A stretch of DNA of 64,000 nt from a bacterium (lineage in GTDB: Bacteria > Vulcanimicrobiota > Vulcanimicrobiia > Vulcanimicrobiales > Vulcanimicrobiaceae): positions 1 to 64,000 of the forward strand of contig JAJYFL010000004.1 in the NCBI GenBank assembly GCA_021790935.1, given 5' to 3'. Shown here one piece after another: positions 38,414 through 50,083 of the stretch. The number at the start of each line of letters is the position of its first letter. Within the stretch, counting starts at the first letter, position 1. Both the position numbers and the translations under genes were made by a program. The notes below the pieces were generated by a model. That model saw nothing but the letters and a program-made list of their open reading frames with translations, was not told where the DNA came from and searched no databases.

Positions 38414-38415
38414 GG

Positions 38416-38532
38416 CTAACCTTGCTCCTCGTTAAAGCAGAAGCCCCCGCCGGACGGGCGGGGGCTTCTGCTTGGTCGAATGATTATCGCGTTCTGCAGG
38501 GAGCAACCTCGACCGATCCGGACGACGGGCAT
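38416..38532 (-). CDS. Leader peptide of the leuA transcript
   Basis: A 38-codon ORF. The ATG lies 8 nt after the -10 box, so it starts at or next to the transcript's 5' end. The peptide begins MPVVRIGRGCSLQNAIIIRP: two Val, then three consecutive Ile codons (ATA ATC ATT) just before the hairpin at 38435-38473. The ORF reads through the hairpin and stops 2 nt before the leuA GTG. It fits ribosome-mediated attenuation and translational coupling. No expression evidence. Confidence 0.65.
   Translation of the reverse strand: MPVVRIGRGCSLQNAIIIRPSRSPRPSGGGFCFNEEQG
38435..38473 (-). terminator. Attenuator-like hairpin before leuA
   Basis: A perfect 17-bp stem, arms 38435-38451 and 38457-38473, with a 5-nt loop. 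On the minus strand it ends CTTCTGCTTTAACG, so only three U residues follow. It stands between the leader-peptide Ile codons and the leuA ribosome site (GAGGAG). The stem shares GAAGCCCCCGCC with the hairpin at 49915. Confidence 0.75.
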
Positions 38533-38540
38533 CTTCGACT

Positions 38541-38570
38541 ACGCTATCACGGCGGCGCACGGCCGGTCAA
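38541..38570 (-). promoter_or_regulatory. leuA promoter
   Basis: On the minus strand TTGACC (38565-38570), 18-nt spacer, TAGCGT (38541-38546). The leader-peptide ATG follows after 8 nt (AGTCGAAG), which puts it at about +2 to +3 if initiation is 7 nt past the -10. The palindrome ATTAACGAAGGTTAAT lies just upstream. Confidence 0.7.
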
Positions 38571-42384: not shown

Positions 42385-42596
42385 GGGTTGTTCTCCTTGT
42401 CTTCCCGAGCGAGTTTGTCTATTTGCATACGCAGACGTGCGAGCGCCTCGGAGGGGCCGTCGAGGTGGATACGAACGCGAAACGAACCATCGCGCTGCAA
42501 TGCTTCCGCACGCGTGTAGACGCAGCCGAAGCGATGCGCGAGATGAATGAGACGCGCGAGGATCCTACCGTCGCGTACGTCCAACGCTGCAATCAT
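42381..42596 (-). CDS. Short acetolactate synthase regulatory subunit (IlvM/N-like)
   Basis: A 71-aa protein made of little more than one ACT-like domain ([20 protein letters not shown], then [20 protein letters not shown]). It sits between ilvB and ilvC with ATGA overlaps on both sides, the place of the small subunit. Standard IlvN is about 160 aa with a second C-terminal domain, so this is of the short IlvM class. The valine response could be weak or altered. Confidence 0.72.
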
Positions 42597-44293
42597 CGCT
42601 CCGCCTCCATCATCTCGTGCATCGCCTGGCCGGCCGGAACGATCGGCCAAACGTTCTCCTCGGGATAGCAGGCGCAGTGCAGAAGCATTGCCGACGGATG
42701 CTCTATCAGCCGGTTGAGAGCGTCGGCGAGATCCTCCGGTACCCGTACCGATTCGGCGCGTATCCCGTACGCGTGCGCGATCTCGCAGAACTCCGGGTTG
42801 TCGCTCAGGTTGGTCGCCGAATAACGGGCGTCGTAGAACAACTGCTGCCATTGCCGCACCATACCGAGGTTGCGGTTGTCGATGAGCACGATTTTTACCG
42901 GCAGATCGTAGCGCCGAATCGTCGCGAGCTCCGCGAGCGACATCTGAAATCCACCATCTCCGACGATCGCCACCACCGGGCGCCCCCCAGGAACAAACGC
43001 CGCTCCGATCGCCGCGGGAAGGCCGAAACCCATCGTACCCAGTCCCGCAGAGGTCAGAAAATTGCGTGGATGCGTCGGGCGCGCGCGCTGCGCGGCCCAC
43101 ATTTGATGCTGGCCCACATCGGTCGCCACGATGGCGTCCGGCGCTAGCCGTTCGAAGAGTCCGCCGATTGCATCGGTAGCGCTGAGCCTCCCAGATTGAG
43201 ATCGGTCGCGCGGTAGTGGTCCTCCGAGCGCGCGCACGCGCTCGCACCAGTCGTCGAACGTGGGAATCTGCTGCCCATCGAGCGCCGTAACCAATTCGCG
43301 GAGCGTTTCGCGTAGATCGCCGTGCAGGCACACGTCCGCGCGAACGATCTTTCCGAATTCGCTGCTGTCGATATCGGCGTGAACGATCTGCGCGCCGGGC
43401 GCGAAGCGATTGGCCGGCCCCGTCACGCGGTCGTCGAACCGCATGCCAAAAGCCAAGATGAGATCGGCCTGCGCGACGGCGAGATTGGCGGCTTTCCATC
43501 CGTGCATTCCGAGCATCCCGAGAAAGCGTCCGTCCTGCGGATCGGCGGCGCCCAATCCGTTGATCGTCGCCGCATGCGGCAGGCGCACTCGCTCGCAAAA
43601 GCGCCGGTAGACCGCGCTCGCATCCGCAGCGCGCACGCCGCCGCCGATTATCGCAACGGGCTGCCGTGCGCTGCGAATCAATTTGACGGTCGCGGTAACC
43701 GCCGCGTGCGACGCACGGGGCAACGTCCTCGAAGCAAGCGAACGAATCGGCGGCGAATCCTCCAGGACGATCGTTTTCAAGACATCGGTCGGCAGATCGA
43801 GTAACACGGGTCCCGGGCGCGGTCCGCGCGCCAATCGAAACGCCGTCCGCAACGCGGGCAAGAGATCGCACGCGTTGCGCACGACGAGGTTGCGTTTGGT
43901 GATCGCATGCGTGATTGCGGCGATGTCGGCTTCTTGAAAGCCGTCGGTTCCCATCAGGGTAGTGCTGACCTGGCCCGTGATGGCGACGAGTGGAATGCTG
44001 TCCATCATCGCATCGAGGATCCCGGTAACGAAATTCGTGGCACCGGGACCAGATGTCGCCACGCAGACGCCGACCTCGCCGCTAGCGCGTGCGTATCCGC
44101 CCGCTGCAAATACCGCCGCGGCCTCATGGCGAACCAGAACGTGGCGAAGCCGGTGTCCGAAGAGCGCGTCGTAAAGCGGCATGATCGCGCCGCCCGGGTA
44201 GCCGAAGATCACCTCGACGCCCTCGGCCCAAATCGCGTCAAGAACGACCCGCGCGCCGGTACGCTGGGCTCGCTCGGCTCGCTCCGCAATCAC
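42593..44293 (-). CDS. ilvB: Acetolactate synthase large subunit
   Basis: A 566-aa TPP enzyme. It has the catalytic-glutamate region VIFGYPGGAIMPLYDAL, the FAD/cofactor middle domain, AGLGTMGFGLPAAIGA and the TPP-magnesium motif GDGGFQMSLAELATIRRY. It condenses pyruvate to acetolactate or 2-aceto-2-hydroxybutyrate. The start is GTG at 44293 with GAGGG upstream. It follows a leader peptide and attenuator. Confidence 0.96.
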   Translation of the reverse strand: MIAERAERAQRTGARVVLDAIWAEGVEVIFGYPGGAIMPLYDALFGHRLRHVLVRHEAAAVFAAGGYARASGEVGVCVATSGPGATNFVTGILDAMMDSIPLVAITGQVSTTLMGTDGFQEADIAAITHAITKRNLVVRNACDLLPALRTAFRLARGPRPGPVLLDLPTDVLKTIVLEDSPPIRSLASRTLPRASHAAVTATVKLIRSARQPVAIIGGGVRAADASAVYRRFCERVRLPHAATINGLGAADPQDGRFLGMLGMHGWKAANLAVAQADLILAFGMRFDDRVTGPANRFAPGAQIVHADIDSSEFGKIVRADVCLHGDLRETLRELVTALDGQQIPTFDDWCERVRALGGPLPRDRSQSGRLSATDAIGGLFERLAPDAIVATDVGQHQMWAAQRARPTHPRNFLTSAGLGTMGFGLPAAIGAAFVPGGRPVVAIVGDGGFQMSLAELATIRRYDLPVKIVLIDNRNLGMVRQWQQLFYDARYSATNLSDNPEFCEIAHAYGIRAESVRVPEDLADALNRLIEHPSAMLLHCACYPEENVWPIVPAGQAMHEMMEAER

Positions 44294-44310
44294 CGCATCT
44301 GCCCTCTTCC

Positions 44311-44344
44311 AAGAAAAAGGCCCCTCGCCGGACCGGCGGGGGCT
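44311..44344 (-). terminator. Attenuator (intrinsic terminator) before ilvB
   Basis: On the minus strand a stem of about 10 bp with one bulged base (GCCCCCGCC against GGCGAGGGGC) is followed directly by CCTTTTTCTT. This is a classical terminator shape with a U-tract, located between the Leu/Val leader ORF and the ilvB start only 18 nt on. A terminator at the front of an operon implies attenuation. Confidence 0.85.
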
Positions 44345-44368
44345 CCTGCGTCTTTCTTCATCAGAGTC

Positions 44369-44452
44369 TTACGCAAAGGCCGATCTGCACGGATCCGAAC
44401 GGAACCGCCTGGTAAGGAGTACGCGTACGAGAAATCGAGTCGCTGTCGGCAT
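44369..44452 (-). CDS. Leader peptide of the ilv operon
   Basis: A 27-aa ORF starting MPTATRFLVRVLLTRRF. Its regulatory codons are CTC GTA CGC GTA CTC CTT, three Leu and two Val. The ATG is 8 nt after the -10 box and the stop is 25 nt before the terminator stem. This is the layout of an ilv-type attenuation leader, except that it would be translated without a ribosome-binding site. Confidence 0.72.
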   Translation of the reverse strand: MPTATRFLVRVLLTRRFRSDPCRSAFA

Positions 44453-44460
44453 GTGCAGGA

Positions 44461-44489
44461 ACCGTATCACGCGCGCCCCGGCGCGTCAA
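44461..44489 (-). promoter_or_regulatory. ilv operon promoter
   Basis: On the minus strand TTGACG (44484-44489), 17-nt spacer, TACGGT (44461-44466), then 8 nt (TCCTGCAC) and the leader-peptide ATG. The TTAATCCCGATTAA palindrome lies 15 bp upstream of the -35. Confidence 0.75.
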
Positions 44490-44504
44490 CGAATCCGGTT
44501 CATA

Positions 44505-44518
44505 TTAATCGGGATTAA
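44505..44518. promoter_or_regulatory. TTAA-N6-TTAA palindrome upstream of the ilv promoter
   Basis: TTAATCGGGATTAA on the plus strand, a perfect 5-bp inverted repeat with a 4-nt centre. It overlaps the TAA stop of lysC and lies 15 bp upstream of the ilv -35. Same pattern as at 38574 and 48560. Confidence 0.55.
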
Positions 44519-45248
44519 CGTTTTCACCACCGACGTACGTTCCCAGGCCGCTGCGCAGGCCAATAATGCGCAGGCTCGTCCCCGTTCGGTATGCCAATTC
44601 CGCGGCGCGCTCTTGCATCACACGTGCGCCGCTGCGCGCGAGATCGCGCAATTGTCGCAGCGATAGGCGCTCGAAAGCAGAGGCGCCCGGCTGTTCGCGC
44701 GGGTCCGCGTCGTACACACCGTCCACGTCGGTATAGATTTCGAGCGGAACGTTGCCGAGGGACCAGGCGACGGCAACGGCGGTCAAATCGCTGCCGCCGC
44801 GCCCGATCGTGGTGAGCCGCCCATCGCCGGTCGAGCCCTGGAAACCCGCCACCACCGGAACGACACCCTCGGCAACGAGCCGCTCGAGCAGTACCGGGCG
44901 TACCGCGACGATCTCGGCATCGCCGTGCGCATCGTCGGTGACGATACCGGCCTGCGCTCCGCTCAGTGCGGTCGCGCGGACGCCGCGCGCACAGAGTTCC
45001 TCGGCAAACAGGCCCGCACTGATCAATTCACCGCAGGCGAGCACCAAATCGCGATTCGCGCTGCCCGGCGCACTTCCGACCAAGGCCGCCAGCGCATCGG
45101 TCGAATACGGCGAGGGCGCTCGACCGAGTGCCGACACGACGACCACCGGATCGCGTCGTTCCCGAGCGGCGGCCAGCACTCGCCCGATGGCGATCTCCCG
45201 CAGTTCGCGAGTCGCAAGCGACGAACCACCGAATTTCTGAACGATCAT
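44505..45248 (-). CDS. lysC: Aspartokinase, catalytic domain only (no ACT domains)
   Basis: A 247-aa aspartate kinase. It has the lysine motif VQKFGGSSLATRE, VVVSALGRAPSPYSTDAL, TTIGRGGSDLTAVAVAW, IYTDVDGVYDADPRE and LSLRQLRDLARSGARVMQERA. Normal LysC is about 400 aa with two C-terminal ACT domains that bind lysine or threonine; here the protein ends right after the kinase domain. Feedback control must therefore come from elsewhere, possibly the ACT-bearing regulator at 48583. Last gene of thrC-thrB-hom-lysC; ATGA overlap with hom. Confidence 0.93.
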   Translation of the reverse strand: MIVQKFGGSSLATRELREIAIGRVLAAARERRDPVVVVSALGRAPSPYSTDALAALVGSAPGSANRDLVLACGELISAGLFAEELCARGVRATALSGAQAGIVTDDAHGDAEIVAVRPVLLERLVAEGVVPVVAGFQGSTGDGRLTTIGRGGSDLTAVAVAWSLGNVPLEIYTDVDGVYDADPREQPGASAFERLSLRQLRDLARSGARVMQERAAELAYRTGTSLRIIGLRSGLGTYVGGENVNPD

Positions 45249-48362: not shown

Positions 48363-48397
48363 TATAAAACGGCCCTCACCGTCTCGGTGAGGGCCGT
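48363..48397 (-). terminator. Attenuator (intrinsic terminator) before thrC
   Basis: A perfect 13-bp stem (48369-48381 with 48385-48397, loop of 3) that on the minus strand ends GGGCCGTTTTATAG. The stem plus U-run is a strong terminator shape. It stands between the leader ORF and the thrC ribosome site. Confidence 0.85.
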
Positions 48398-48422
48398 CGT
48401 CGACTGCTACTACTTCCTGCAC

Positions 48423-48506
48423 TTACGACAATAGCACGCTCATCGAGCTCCAAAAGGCGCTCGTAGACATCGTCTGCAAAGTGCTAATCATCGCGGCTGC
48501 GTACAT
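48423..48506 (-). CDS. Leader peptide of the thr operon
   Basis: A 27-aa ORF beginning MYAAAMISTLQTMSTS. It has three Thr codons (ACT, ACG, ACG), one Ile and four Met counting the start, which are the end products or relatives of the aspartate pathway. The ATG is 8 nt after the -10 box. It is less Thr-rich than the classical thrL, so the regulatory codons are uncertain. Confidence 0.6.
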   Translation of the reverse strand: MYAAAMISTLQTMSTSAFWSSMSVLLS

Positions 48507-48514
48507 GTGAGGCT

Positions 48515-48543
48515 ACCCTAGCATGCTACCGGTACGGTGTCAA
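48515..48543 (-). promoter_or_regulatory. thr operon promoter
   Basis: On the minus strand a perfect TTGACA (48538-48543), a 17-nt spacer and TAGGGT (48515-48520), then AGCCTCAC and the leader ATG. A TTAA palindrome lies 16 bp upstream of the -35. Confidence 0.78.
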
Positions 48544-48582: not shown

Positions 48583-49863
48583 CTACCGCACGAACAGATA
48601 GCCTTGGTTCGGAATCGTCAGGATGTAACGAGGATTGGCGGGATCCTCCTCGATCTTCTTCCGGAGGTTGTGCATGTGGACGCGCAGCGCCGCGAGTTCG
48701 TCCTTACCGTCCGAACCAAATAGGCAACGCGCTGCCTCCTCCGCTTCGACGACGCGCCCGACGTTATCGACGAGCACCTTGAGCAACGTCGCTTGGCGCA
48801 CTCCTAAACGCACTTCGCGGCCATTGACCCGCAGCTTCCGCAACTTCAGATCGAACAGTATCGACGCCGCAGCCGGGAGCGTGCTGCCCGTAACGAACGC
48901 TTCGTGCAGGGCCTGTTCGGCTACGGCCGCCTCGTGCTCCTGAAGCAGCAGTGAAATCGTGACGTTGCTGTCCGTAAAATGGAGGACCGTGATATCACGC
49001 TCCCGGAGCGCGGCAAAGACTTTGCAGAAGACACCGACCGTGCTTCTGATCCCACTTCCAACGACGCACACTTTCGCGCAATGGGTCGTGGCGTGCGAGT
49101 GTAGCGAGAGTTCTGCAGCGATGTCTTGCGCGAGATCTACGCGATCCGCGTCGACCGTGAACCGCATTCGCTTGGGAAAGAACTGCAACATCTCGAGCGA
49201 CACGCCGCGTGCCGCAAGCTGCTCGACCATCCGCGTCCGCTGCCTCCGCCACCGATCGCCGTCGTCGTGCGTCGGGCGCACGCTTACGAATGCAGCCCCC
49301 GTCGATATTGTGATAGACGTAACTGGCTTCGACCGTTCTTCGAATGCGTCATCTCGAACGATCGTCCCGCGGTTTTCAACAATGCTGCGGATTTCGTAGG
49401 GAACGCCCAACGCACGTGCCCGCTCGGCCGCGACTGGCGGAAGCGCTCCGGCGCGCAGGTCCGCCAGTTCCATCAGCTCCATGTAGCTTGCGAATTCGAC
49501 GGGGGTCGCCGTCGGCACGCGTTCCGGATCCGCAGACATTACGCCATGCGCGTCGGCGAACACGATGACGCGTGCCGACTCGAACGTAGCGGCGAGCGCC
49601 ATCGCCTCCTCCTGACCGCCTCCGACCAGGAGCGGGATCCCGCTGCGCGCTAGCTCGTCGAAGGATCCTACCGCGAAATGATCTGGAAGCCGCATCGACG
49701 CGTAGCCCCGCTGTGCAAGCGCATCGGCGACGACGGCGGGCGATGCGCAGACTACGATAACCATCGCTCCACCGTCCCGAAGGTCGGCGATTCGCACGAC
49801 GATTGCGTCCGTTAACCGCGCACTTTGCACGACTGGGCGCCCGAAGGTGACGACGTTAACCAT
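48583..49863 (-). CDS. Aspartokinase-like/ACT/winged-helix fusion regulator
   Basis: A 426-aa fusion. Residues 1-178 resemble a shrunken aspartokinase: VVTFGRPVV where KFGGSSV is expected, and VIVFADAHGVMSADPERVP followed by FASYMELMELADLRAGALPP, matching the TDVDGVYTADPR and EMLELA regions. The catalytic lysine and GGSD motifs are lost. Residues 181-325 look like tandem ACT domains (VCVVGSGIRSTVGVFCKVF, VTISLLLQEHEAAVAEQALH). Residues 335-426 are an OmpR-type winged helix (LRVHMHNLRKKIEEDP, LTIPNQGYLFV). I infer an amino-acid-sensing transcription factor for the thr/ilv/leu genes. Confidence 0.85.
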   Translation of the reverse strand: MVNVVTFGRPVVQSARLTDAIVVRIADLRDGGAMVIVVCASPAVVADALAQRGYASMRLPDHFAVGSFDELARSGIPLLVGGGQEEAMALAATFESARVIVFADAHGVMSADPERVPTATPVEFASYMELMELADLRAGALPPVAAERARALGVPYEIRSIVENRGTIVRDDAFEERSKPVTSITISTGAAFVSVRPTHDDGDRWRRQRTRMVEQLAARGVSLEMLQFFPKRMRFTVDADRVDLAQDIAAELSLHSHATTHCAKVCVVGSGIRSTVGVFCKVFAALRERDITVLHFTDSNVTISLLLQEHEAAVAEQALHEAFVTGSTLPAAASILFDLKLRKLRVNGREVRLGVRQATLLKVLVDNVGRVVEAEEAARCLFGSDGKDELAALRVHMHNLRKKIEEDPANPRYILTIPNQGYLFVR

Positions 49864-49908: not shown

Positions 49909-49949
49909 CAAAACGAAGAAGCCCCCGCCGAACCGGCGGGGGCTTCTTC
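49909..49949 (-). terminator. Attenuator-like terminator before the regulator gene
   Basis: A perfect 16-bp stem (49915-49930 with 49934-49949, loop of 3), ending on the minus strand CTTCTTCGTTTTGG. It carries GAAGCCCCCGCC like the leuA hairpin. It lies between the Thr-rich leader ORF and the regulator gene. Confidence 0.82.
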
Positions 49950-49967
49950 TGCTGTGAACCGCTGTCT

Positions 49968-50045
49968 CTACGCAGTCGCCATCCATCGCCGGTCCGATAC
50001 GGAACCGAGCATCGTAATGGTAGCAAGCGTAAAAGCACTGGACAT
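49968..50045 (-). CDS. Leader peptide of the regulator transcript
   Basis: A 25-aa ORF starting MSSAFTLATITMLGS. The codon run ACG CTT GCT ACC ATT ACG ATG holds three Thr, one Ile and one Met, recalling the Thr/Ile runs of the enterobacterial thr leader. The ATG is 8 nt after the -10 box. With the terminator downstream, transcription of the regulator gene itself should depend on charged tRNA-Thr and tRNA-Ile. Confidence 0.7.
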   Translation of the reverse strand: MSSAFTLATITMLGSVSDRRWMATA

Positions 50046-50053
50046 TTCTGGAT

Positions 50054-50083
50054 ACTCTACCATGTGAGACCGGCAGGCGTCAA
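50054..50083 (-). promoter_or_regulatory. Promoter of the regulator gene
   Basis: On the minus strand TTGACG (50078-50083), 18-nt spacer, TAGAGT (50054-50059), then ATCCAGAA and the leader ATG. No TTAA palindrome is seen upstream here, unlike the leu, ilv and thr promoters. Confidence 0.72.

Follow-up and report, generated by a model that had tools for sequence, protein, structure and literature searches.

A predicted leader-peptide attenuator before ilvB in a Vulcanimicrobiaceae genome, and the same layout before other amino-acid genes

In the enterobacterial ilvGMEDA and ivbL attenuators, control codons in a leader ORF are combined with the RNA pairings 1:2, 2:3 and 3:4. The enterobacterial leader has a ribosome-binding site, and each operon's attenuator generally constitutes its own family. 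T-box riboswitches, in comparison, reuse one RNA scaffold before many amino-acid genes, with a codon setting the specificity, and read tRNA directly. The region described here lies before ilvB in a 64,000-nucleotide stretch of bacterial DNA (the window). It appears to follow the same pairing and control-codon logic as the enterobacterial attenuators; unlike theirs, its leader ORF appears near-leaderless, and unlike in the T-box, the reader would be the ribosome on that ORF.

Earlier work describes leader-peptide attenuators of ilvB in Corynebacterium and Mycobacterium (PMC11857589, PMC10272879, PMC13236596), and predictions extend them to further Actinobacteria (PMC1262725); PMC10272879 also mentions E. 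coli. In the Corynebacterium ilvBNC attenuator, or ilvB-II motif, a branched-chain amino acid (BCAA) upstream ORF (uORF), an antiterminator and a terminator precede ilvB, as in our locus, together with an anti-antiterminator, for which our locus has a candidate counterpart; leaderless translation of the C. glutamicum uORF is discussed, similar to the probably near-leaderless ORF here (PMC11857589, PMC10272879). The ilvB-II motif is described as having one constant location and a single copy in each genome (PMC10272879), whereas the layout found here precedes many gene classes. The M. tuberculosis ilvB1NC operon has a terminated leader of about 120 nt, LVVI control codons and a terminator/anti-terminator switch with the same logic; it is supported by RNA-end and reporter data (PMC13236596). 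That system belongs to another phylum, and the accessible text of PMC13236596 makes no claim of a scaffold shared between operons. In Streptomyces, control-codon swaps before ilvB were reported to leave regulation unchanged (cited in PMC1262725). Mycobacterial cys operons carry Cys-codon uORFs in short leaders before sulfur genes, as found here, but these are described as being without conserved terminator hairpins (PMC1262725), whereas an intrinsic terminator follows the leaders here. Leaderless polycysteine attenuators have also been reported. In the open PMC literature we found no report of an attenuator set shared between operons or of leader peptides in Eremiobacterota.

The original prediction singled out the ilvB region as a full attenuation layout outside the Enterobacteria. 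The layout is indeed complete, but its location is not remarkable in itself, because ilvB attenuators are already known from the two genera named above and predicted in further Actinobacteria. Attenuation of ilvB is known; what is unusual is that a single layout recurs in front of many operons with its sensor codons exchanged. The predicted promoter, 27-residue leader with its control codons, and hairpin with a T5 run before ilvB were all located, on the minus strand:

44461..44489 (-), promoter-like TTGACG-17-TACGGT, read from sequence: -35-like TTGACG at 44489-44484, -10-like TACGGT at 44466-44461
44369..44452 (-), leader ORF MPTATRFLVRVLLTRRFRSDPCRSAFA of 27 codons, ATG at 44452, TAA ending at 44369, with counterparts in 21 other loci
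44414..44431 (-), Leu/Val control codons CTC GTA CGC GTA CTC CTT, read from sequence
44371..44397 (-), antiterminator 5' arm (region 2), from the minimum-energy fold of the nascent leader and covariation
44329..44351 (-), antiterminator 3' arm (region 3), overlapping the terminator 5' arm, from the minimum-energy nascent-leader fold and covariation
44318..44346 (-), GC-rich terminator hairpin, -20.0 kcal/mol, with covariation
44311..44318 (-), T-rich tract TTTTTCTT with T5, its first T closing the hairpin, read from sequence
42593..44293 (-), ilvB, acetohydroxyacid synthase large subunit, GTG start at 44293, from Pfam TPP_enzyme N/M/C matches and orthologs

ORFs judged by eye to be ilvN-, ilvC- and ilvD-like lie 3' of ilvB. 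The leader ATG is located 8 nt past the -10 element, so the expected transcription start coincides with the ATG or lies beside it. This spacing suggests that the leader ORF is probably near-leaderless. The leader contains 5 Leu/Val among 27 residues, no Ile and 6 Arg codons, compared with 7 Leu/Val/Ile residues in each of the two sister-species leaders and 7-13 in each of the other 21 ilvB leaders. The six codons CTC GTA CGC GTA CTC CTT are unchanged across the three species of the genus.

By itself the window copy is statistically unremarkable, and its support is comparative. Folding of the whole leader does not stand out from that of shuffled sequences (37/200 shuffles were as stable); only 6/200 shuffles fold as well as the terminator stretch. 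For the antiterminator in nascent RNA, 33/200 shuffles match the arm sequestration and 60/200 the energy. The promoter is absent from the output of a generic promoter scan. The single sequence was dropped as proof of attenuation since shuffles perform nearly as well, and the claim therefore had to be tested by comparison.

Protein searches yielded 33 IlvB-ortholog loci (20 + 13) from the genus and its family (f1) and from a single sister family (f2). A leader and terminator stand directly 5' of ilvB in 22 of them. These leaders encode 19-27 residues (examples are MFAHNLVLVVVILISRSATDRYGLATA and MLLTALLIVVLVLISRSSPNRLGLTTA) followed by a hairpin with a T-run, and all 22 have a Leu/Val(/Ile) run, which is weak in the window copy alone. 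TTGAC is kept in 22/22 loci, and the ATG lies 7-14 nt behind the called -10, consistent with a leaderless ORF. The 22 terminators range from -18.3 to -35.9 kcal/mol, each with a T-rich tail. In the remaining 11 loci (genera g9 and g20), ilvB lies directly behind ilvC, as judged by eye, and in all 11 genomes with this gene order the leader sits before ilvC instead (for example MSARLVLVLGVILLTVPPNRRAAFA). An IlvB ortholog at E 1e-150 is missing from 70/99 f1 genomes, which may point to BCAA auxotrophy, although many of the genomes are incomplete.

A conserved antiterminator that excludes the terminator exists, and both the 2:3 and the 3:4 helices covary. Such an alternative fold had been proposed as a check in the original prediction, and it is borne out by nascent folds, cognate arms and covariation. 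When the RNA from the control codons to the terminator loop was folded, most loci showed region 2 paired over a long stretch with the 5' arm of the terminator. When arms were swapped among 14 genera (one row per genus, 20000 permutations, relatedness beyond that ignored), the cognate duplexes summed to -420.6 for 2:3 (permuted -338.1, sd 13.6), -182.3 for 1:2 (permuted -146.2) and -389.3 for 3:4 (permuted -296.7); for each pairing 0/20000 permutations reached the cognate value. Column covariation scored 0.248 for 2:3, compared with 0.178 in shuffled and at most 0.108 in slid versions, and 0.388 for 3:4 compared with 0.197 in shuffled ones, with similar results for both helices on a second alignment. 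Column covariation of the 1:2 hairpin was not above that of shuffles, 129/500 of which scored as high.

The sequence parts, their conservation and the 2:3 and 3:4 covariation are directly supported; for start site, translation, stalling and termination we infer the following course. RNA polymerase would initiate on the leader ATG or a few bases away from it, and a ribosome would translate the 27-codon leader. With sufficient charged Leu and Val tRNA (and Ile tRNA in relatives), the ribosome would reach the stop codon and cover region 2, allowing the 3:4 terminator to form and transcription to end before ilvB. With charged tRNA scarce, it would stall on the codons from CTC GTA to CTC CTT, region 2 (44397-44371) would pair with region 3 (44351-44329), and ilvB would be transcribed in the absence of the terminator. 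In the folding model of the 22 loci, upstream nascent RNA holds the terminator arm with a mean probability of 0.78 when the ribosome is stalled, 0.24 when it is at the stop codon and 0.42 without a ribosome. At full-length equilibrium, the terminator is preferred even in the stalled state in 18/22 loci, including the window (0.77 vs 0.12). Antitermination must therefore be kinetic. Kinetic switching is usual in attenuation models.

Several other explanations can be weighed against this mechanism. The window copy could be a decaying attenuator, an inherited scaffold in which Ile codons were lost, Arg codons inserted and the antiterminator mismatched, leaving a weak or constitutive terminator. 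Its low count of Leu, Ile and Val residues (5 vs 7-13 in the other 21 leaders) would fit such a history, as would the antiterminator of the window genus, whose cognate duplexes are on the weak side (-24.6 to -25.6 vs an overall mean of -29.7), and the leuA leader of the same genus, which has no stop codon before its terminator. However, three species share the control codons, promoter and terminator with little or no difference even though other leader codons changed, and the 2:3 pairing of the window copy still forms. We consider decay of the ilvB element unlikely.

A ligand- or tRNA-binding riboswitch (ppGpp or T-box) with an accidental ORF has a precedent in the ppGpp riboswitch reported on ilvB genes of some other bacteria (PMC10272879, accessible portion). 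Against it, the region 44200-44600 has no match in Rfam 15 at E up to 10, and at gathering scores only tRNAs were matched in the window and in 20 loci; no T-box was among the Rfam matches in the window or in 44200-44600. Moreover, the control residues vary with the downstream gene, for which decoding is the simplest explanation, and a riboswitch appears very improbable. Alternatively, the hairpin could simply terminate the transcript arriving from the lysC side ahead of ilvB, with the ORF there by chance. Intergenic terminators are common and the single-sequence fold is not unusual, but the promoter is located 5' of the terminator, and the leader and antiterminator are kept in many genera, which makes this the least probable reading. 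Attenuation of the ilv operon, as originally predicted, thus remains the best reading, given the conserved leader and terminator and the covarying antiterminator and terminator. Judged by this comparative evidence, the ilvB element is a real attenuator, in itself of an ordinary kind with a known mechanism. We are confident in reading the region as a ribosome-mediated attenuator of ilvB operon transcription and as one of a set with the same layout and gene-fitting control codons.

That set was found with a covariance model trained only on the 22 ilvB leaders (R1) and run on 99 family and 149 phylum genomes. At E up to 0.01 it matches 58/149 phylum genomes: 53 in f1, 4 in f2 and 1 elsewhere, the last weakly and with no called leader. 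We examined 101 non-ilvB places, most with E up to about 0.06 and two of them in the window. They are a subset of those listed, from which antisense matches to hairpins already known and some of the weak places had been dropped; eight further places were read besides the 101. Leaders were called blind to composition, taking the best promoter upstream and then the first ATG or GTG behind it. Downstream gene classes were assigned by Pfam on representatives and blastp to these (the ilvC representative itself by eye), and blastp agrees with the class in 84/84 assigned.

The layout occurs before pheA-, aroA-, leuA-, ilvA-, ilvC-, ilvE-, thrC-, aspartokinase-like, met, cysH, sulfite-reductase and other genes. 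Phe/Tyr/Trp-rich leaders precede prephenate dehydratase-DAHP synthase fusions, DAHP synthase-chorismate mutase, chorismate mutase, EPSP synthase and Glycos_transf_3 (trpD-like) genes; Leu/Ile/Val-rich leaders precede ilvC, ilvE-like genes, leuA and ilvA; Thr-rich leaders precede threonine synthase and the aspartokinase-like gene; and Cys/Met-rich leaders precede Cys/Met PLP enzymes, NMT1-type binding proteins, cysH, sulfite reductase, TauE and one permease. With expectations for each gene class fixed after the leaders had been seen, though from Pfam matches, the most-enriched residue group is that of the pathway in 65/71 leaders (permuted mean 20.5, maximum 37), or in 36/40 when one leader is taken per genus and class (permuted maximum 23). 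The fraction of matching residues, compared with other leaders, is 0.36 vs 0.15 for LIV, 0.26 vs 0.05 for FYW, 0.22 vs 0.03 for CM and 0.33 vs 0.03 for T. The six mismatches are L161, L177, L205, L228 (LIV-rich, higher Thr ratio), L210 and L188. The 30 places outside the 71 comprise 17 without a class (seven without a called leader) and 13 before haem-oxygenase-like genes, which carried no prior residue expectation (four without a called leader). Among 40 of these non-ilvB loci, sampled once for each genus and class, the 2:3 arms again prove cognate (0/20000 permutations), and 20/40 nascent folds have a z of -2 or lower.

Several loci in this survey are of separate interest. Tyr-rich leaders (e.g. 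AYYYYYYGYFDRSR) at L183, L186, L196, L199, L220, L221, L234 and L253 precede a haem-oxygenase-like protein of ~256 aa, which is conserved and matches PF14518 weakly; its gene perhaps has a tyrosine-linked role. Prephenate dehydratase and DAHP synthase are fused in one protein at L158:4885-6648 (-) and in L231. The leaders before threonine-synthase-like genes in L174 and L223 have twelve consecutive Thr codons. Two attenuators stand back to back at L164:1186-3710, with ilvC on one strand and an NMT1-type binding protein on the other. Cys-rich leaders in L171, L173, L194, L204 and L232 lie before cysH, TauE, a permease or genes without a class. Type II photosynthetic reaction-centre genes are present in 6/99 family genomes, one of which is closed (3,508,363 bases); such genes would be in keeping with Eremiobacterota (WPS-2).

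Within the window, there are three further candidates for this layout:

48370..48543 (-), candidate attenuator before thrC: TTGACA, leader MYAAAMISTLQTMSTSAFWSSMSVLLS at 48506-48423, hairpin at 48396-48370; weak match to R2, a second model described below (25.1 bits), and sequence
49911..50083 (-), candidate attenuator before the aspartokinase-like gene: TTGACG, leader MSSAFTLATITMLGSVSDRRWMATA at 50045-49968, hairpin at about 49950-49917; R1 45.6 and R2 64.9 bits, and sequence
38436..38570 (-), related element before leuA (leader stretch noted at 38414-38570): TTGACC, ATG at 38532, hairpin at 38472-38436; R1 27.0 and R2 44.6 bits, and sequence

In the leuA leader of the window genus (also L206 and L211), the ORF from the called ATG runs for 38 codons without a stop before the terminator; in a sister species the stop lies 53 nt past the terminator start. 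The leuA leaders of relatives are Leu-rich and have a stop, and the leuA attenuator of the window genus looks decayed. The aspartokinase-like protein (48586-49863, minus strand) combines ACT domains and an OmpR-type DNA-binding domain (Trans_reg_C, E 2e-16) in one fusion and has only a short AA_kinase match, with a Thr/Ile/Met leader of its own upstream. It is possibly a regulator and not an enzyme.

Whether these attenuators form one family was addressed with two more models. R2 was built from 24 attenuators with all BCAA gene classes excluded, and it recovers the ilvB leader in 22/22 loci at 34-79 bits. Detection is thus reciprocal, R1 from ilvB leaders alone finding the non-ilv attenuators and R2 without BCAA genes finding the ilvB leaders. 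R2 also scores the window ilvB element at 53.8 bits, and its training set included a near-identical sister copy of the aspartokinase-like element that scores 64.9 bits. In each of five whole genomes, R2 marks 6-11 places at E up to 0.001; among these are antisense copies of the same hairpin and places that lack a leader. Two new places lie before homoserine-dehydrogenase-like ORFs, as judged by eye (MFQTSMMTCSMCIMRTHKAG.. and MFTRPTTMICPMCGM..). Among outgroups, R1 has weak matches in 2/40 genomes; L257 (Gilliamella) is by its own sequence an ilvB leader attenuator, and the other match lacks such a leader. R2 scores 17-28 bits (E up to 0.02) in 9/20 outgroup loci, 7 of these directly 5' of ilvB, and antisense terminator matches reach 22-41 bits, the palindrome alone giving up to 41. 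Below about 40 bits, membership is therefore not shown by score alone, which includes the thrC candidate in the window.

The terminator-free model R3 covers only the region before the terminator. It weakly finds the correct strand and region in 8/22 ilvB loci (L124, L125, L127, L130, L131, L132, L133 and L135; E 6e-4 to 4.3), with no match to the window ilvB leader or in the 20 outgroup loci. R3 also matched terminator arms and is too weak to prove common descent. In addition, region 2 must resemble region 4, since both pair with region 3, so that shared sequence need not mean shared descent. Common descent of the attenuators before different operons is suggested by these data, and we regard the question as evenly balanced. 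One ancestral leader-peptide attenuator may have been duplicated and re-coded, its near-leaderless scaffold serving as a general amino-acid sensor and a ribosome-read counterpart of the T-box. The codons would have been swapped for BCAA, Ile, Thr/Met, Met/Cys, Cys and Tyr/Phe/Trp before roughly 18 gene classes. This scenario seems to us equally likely to be right or wrong.

If the attenuators are one family, repeated codon swaps in a short ORF would have altered the specificity of a natural RNA switch many times over, in a manner traceable by sequence. The set would then offer natural variants for studying how leader codons determine the response of an attenuator. It would also predict, for poorly explored bacteria, amino-acid regulation of unstudied genes, such as the haem-oxygenase-like gene behind Tyr-rich leaders.
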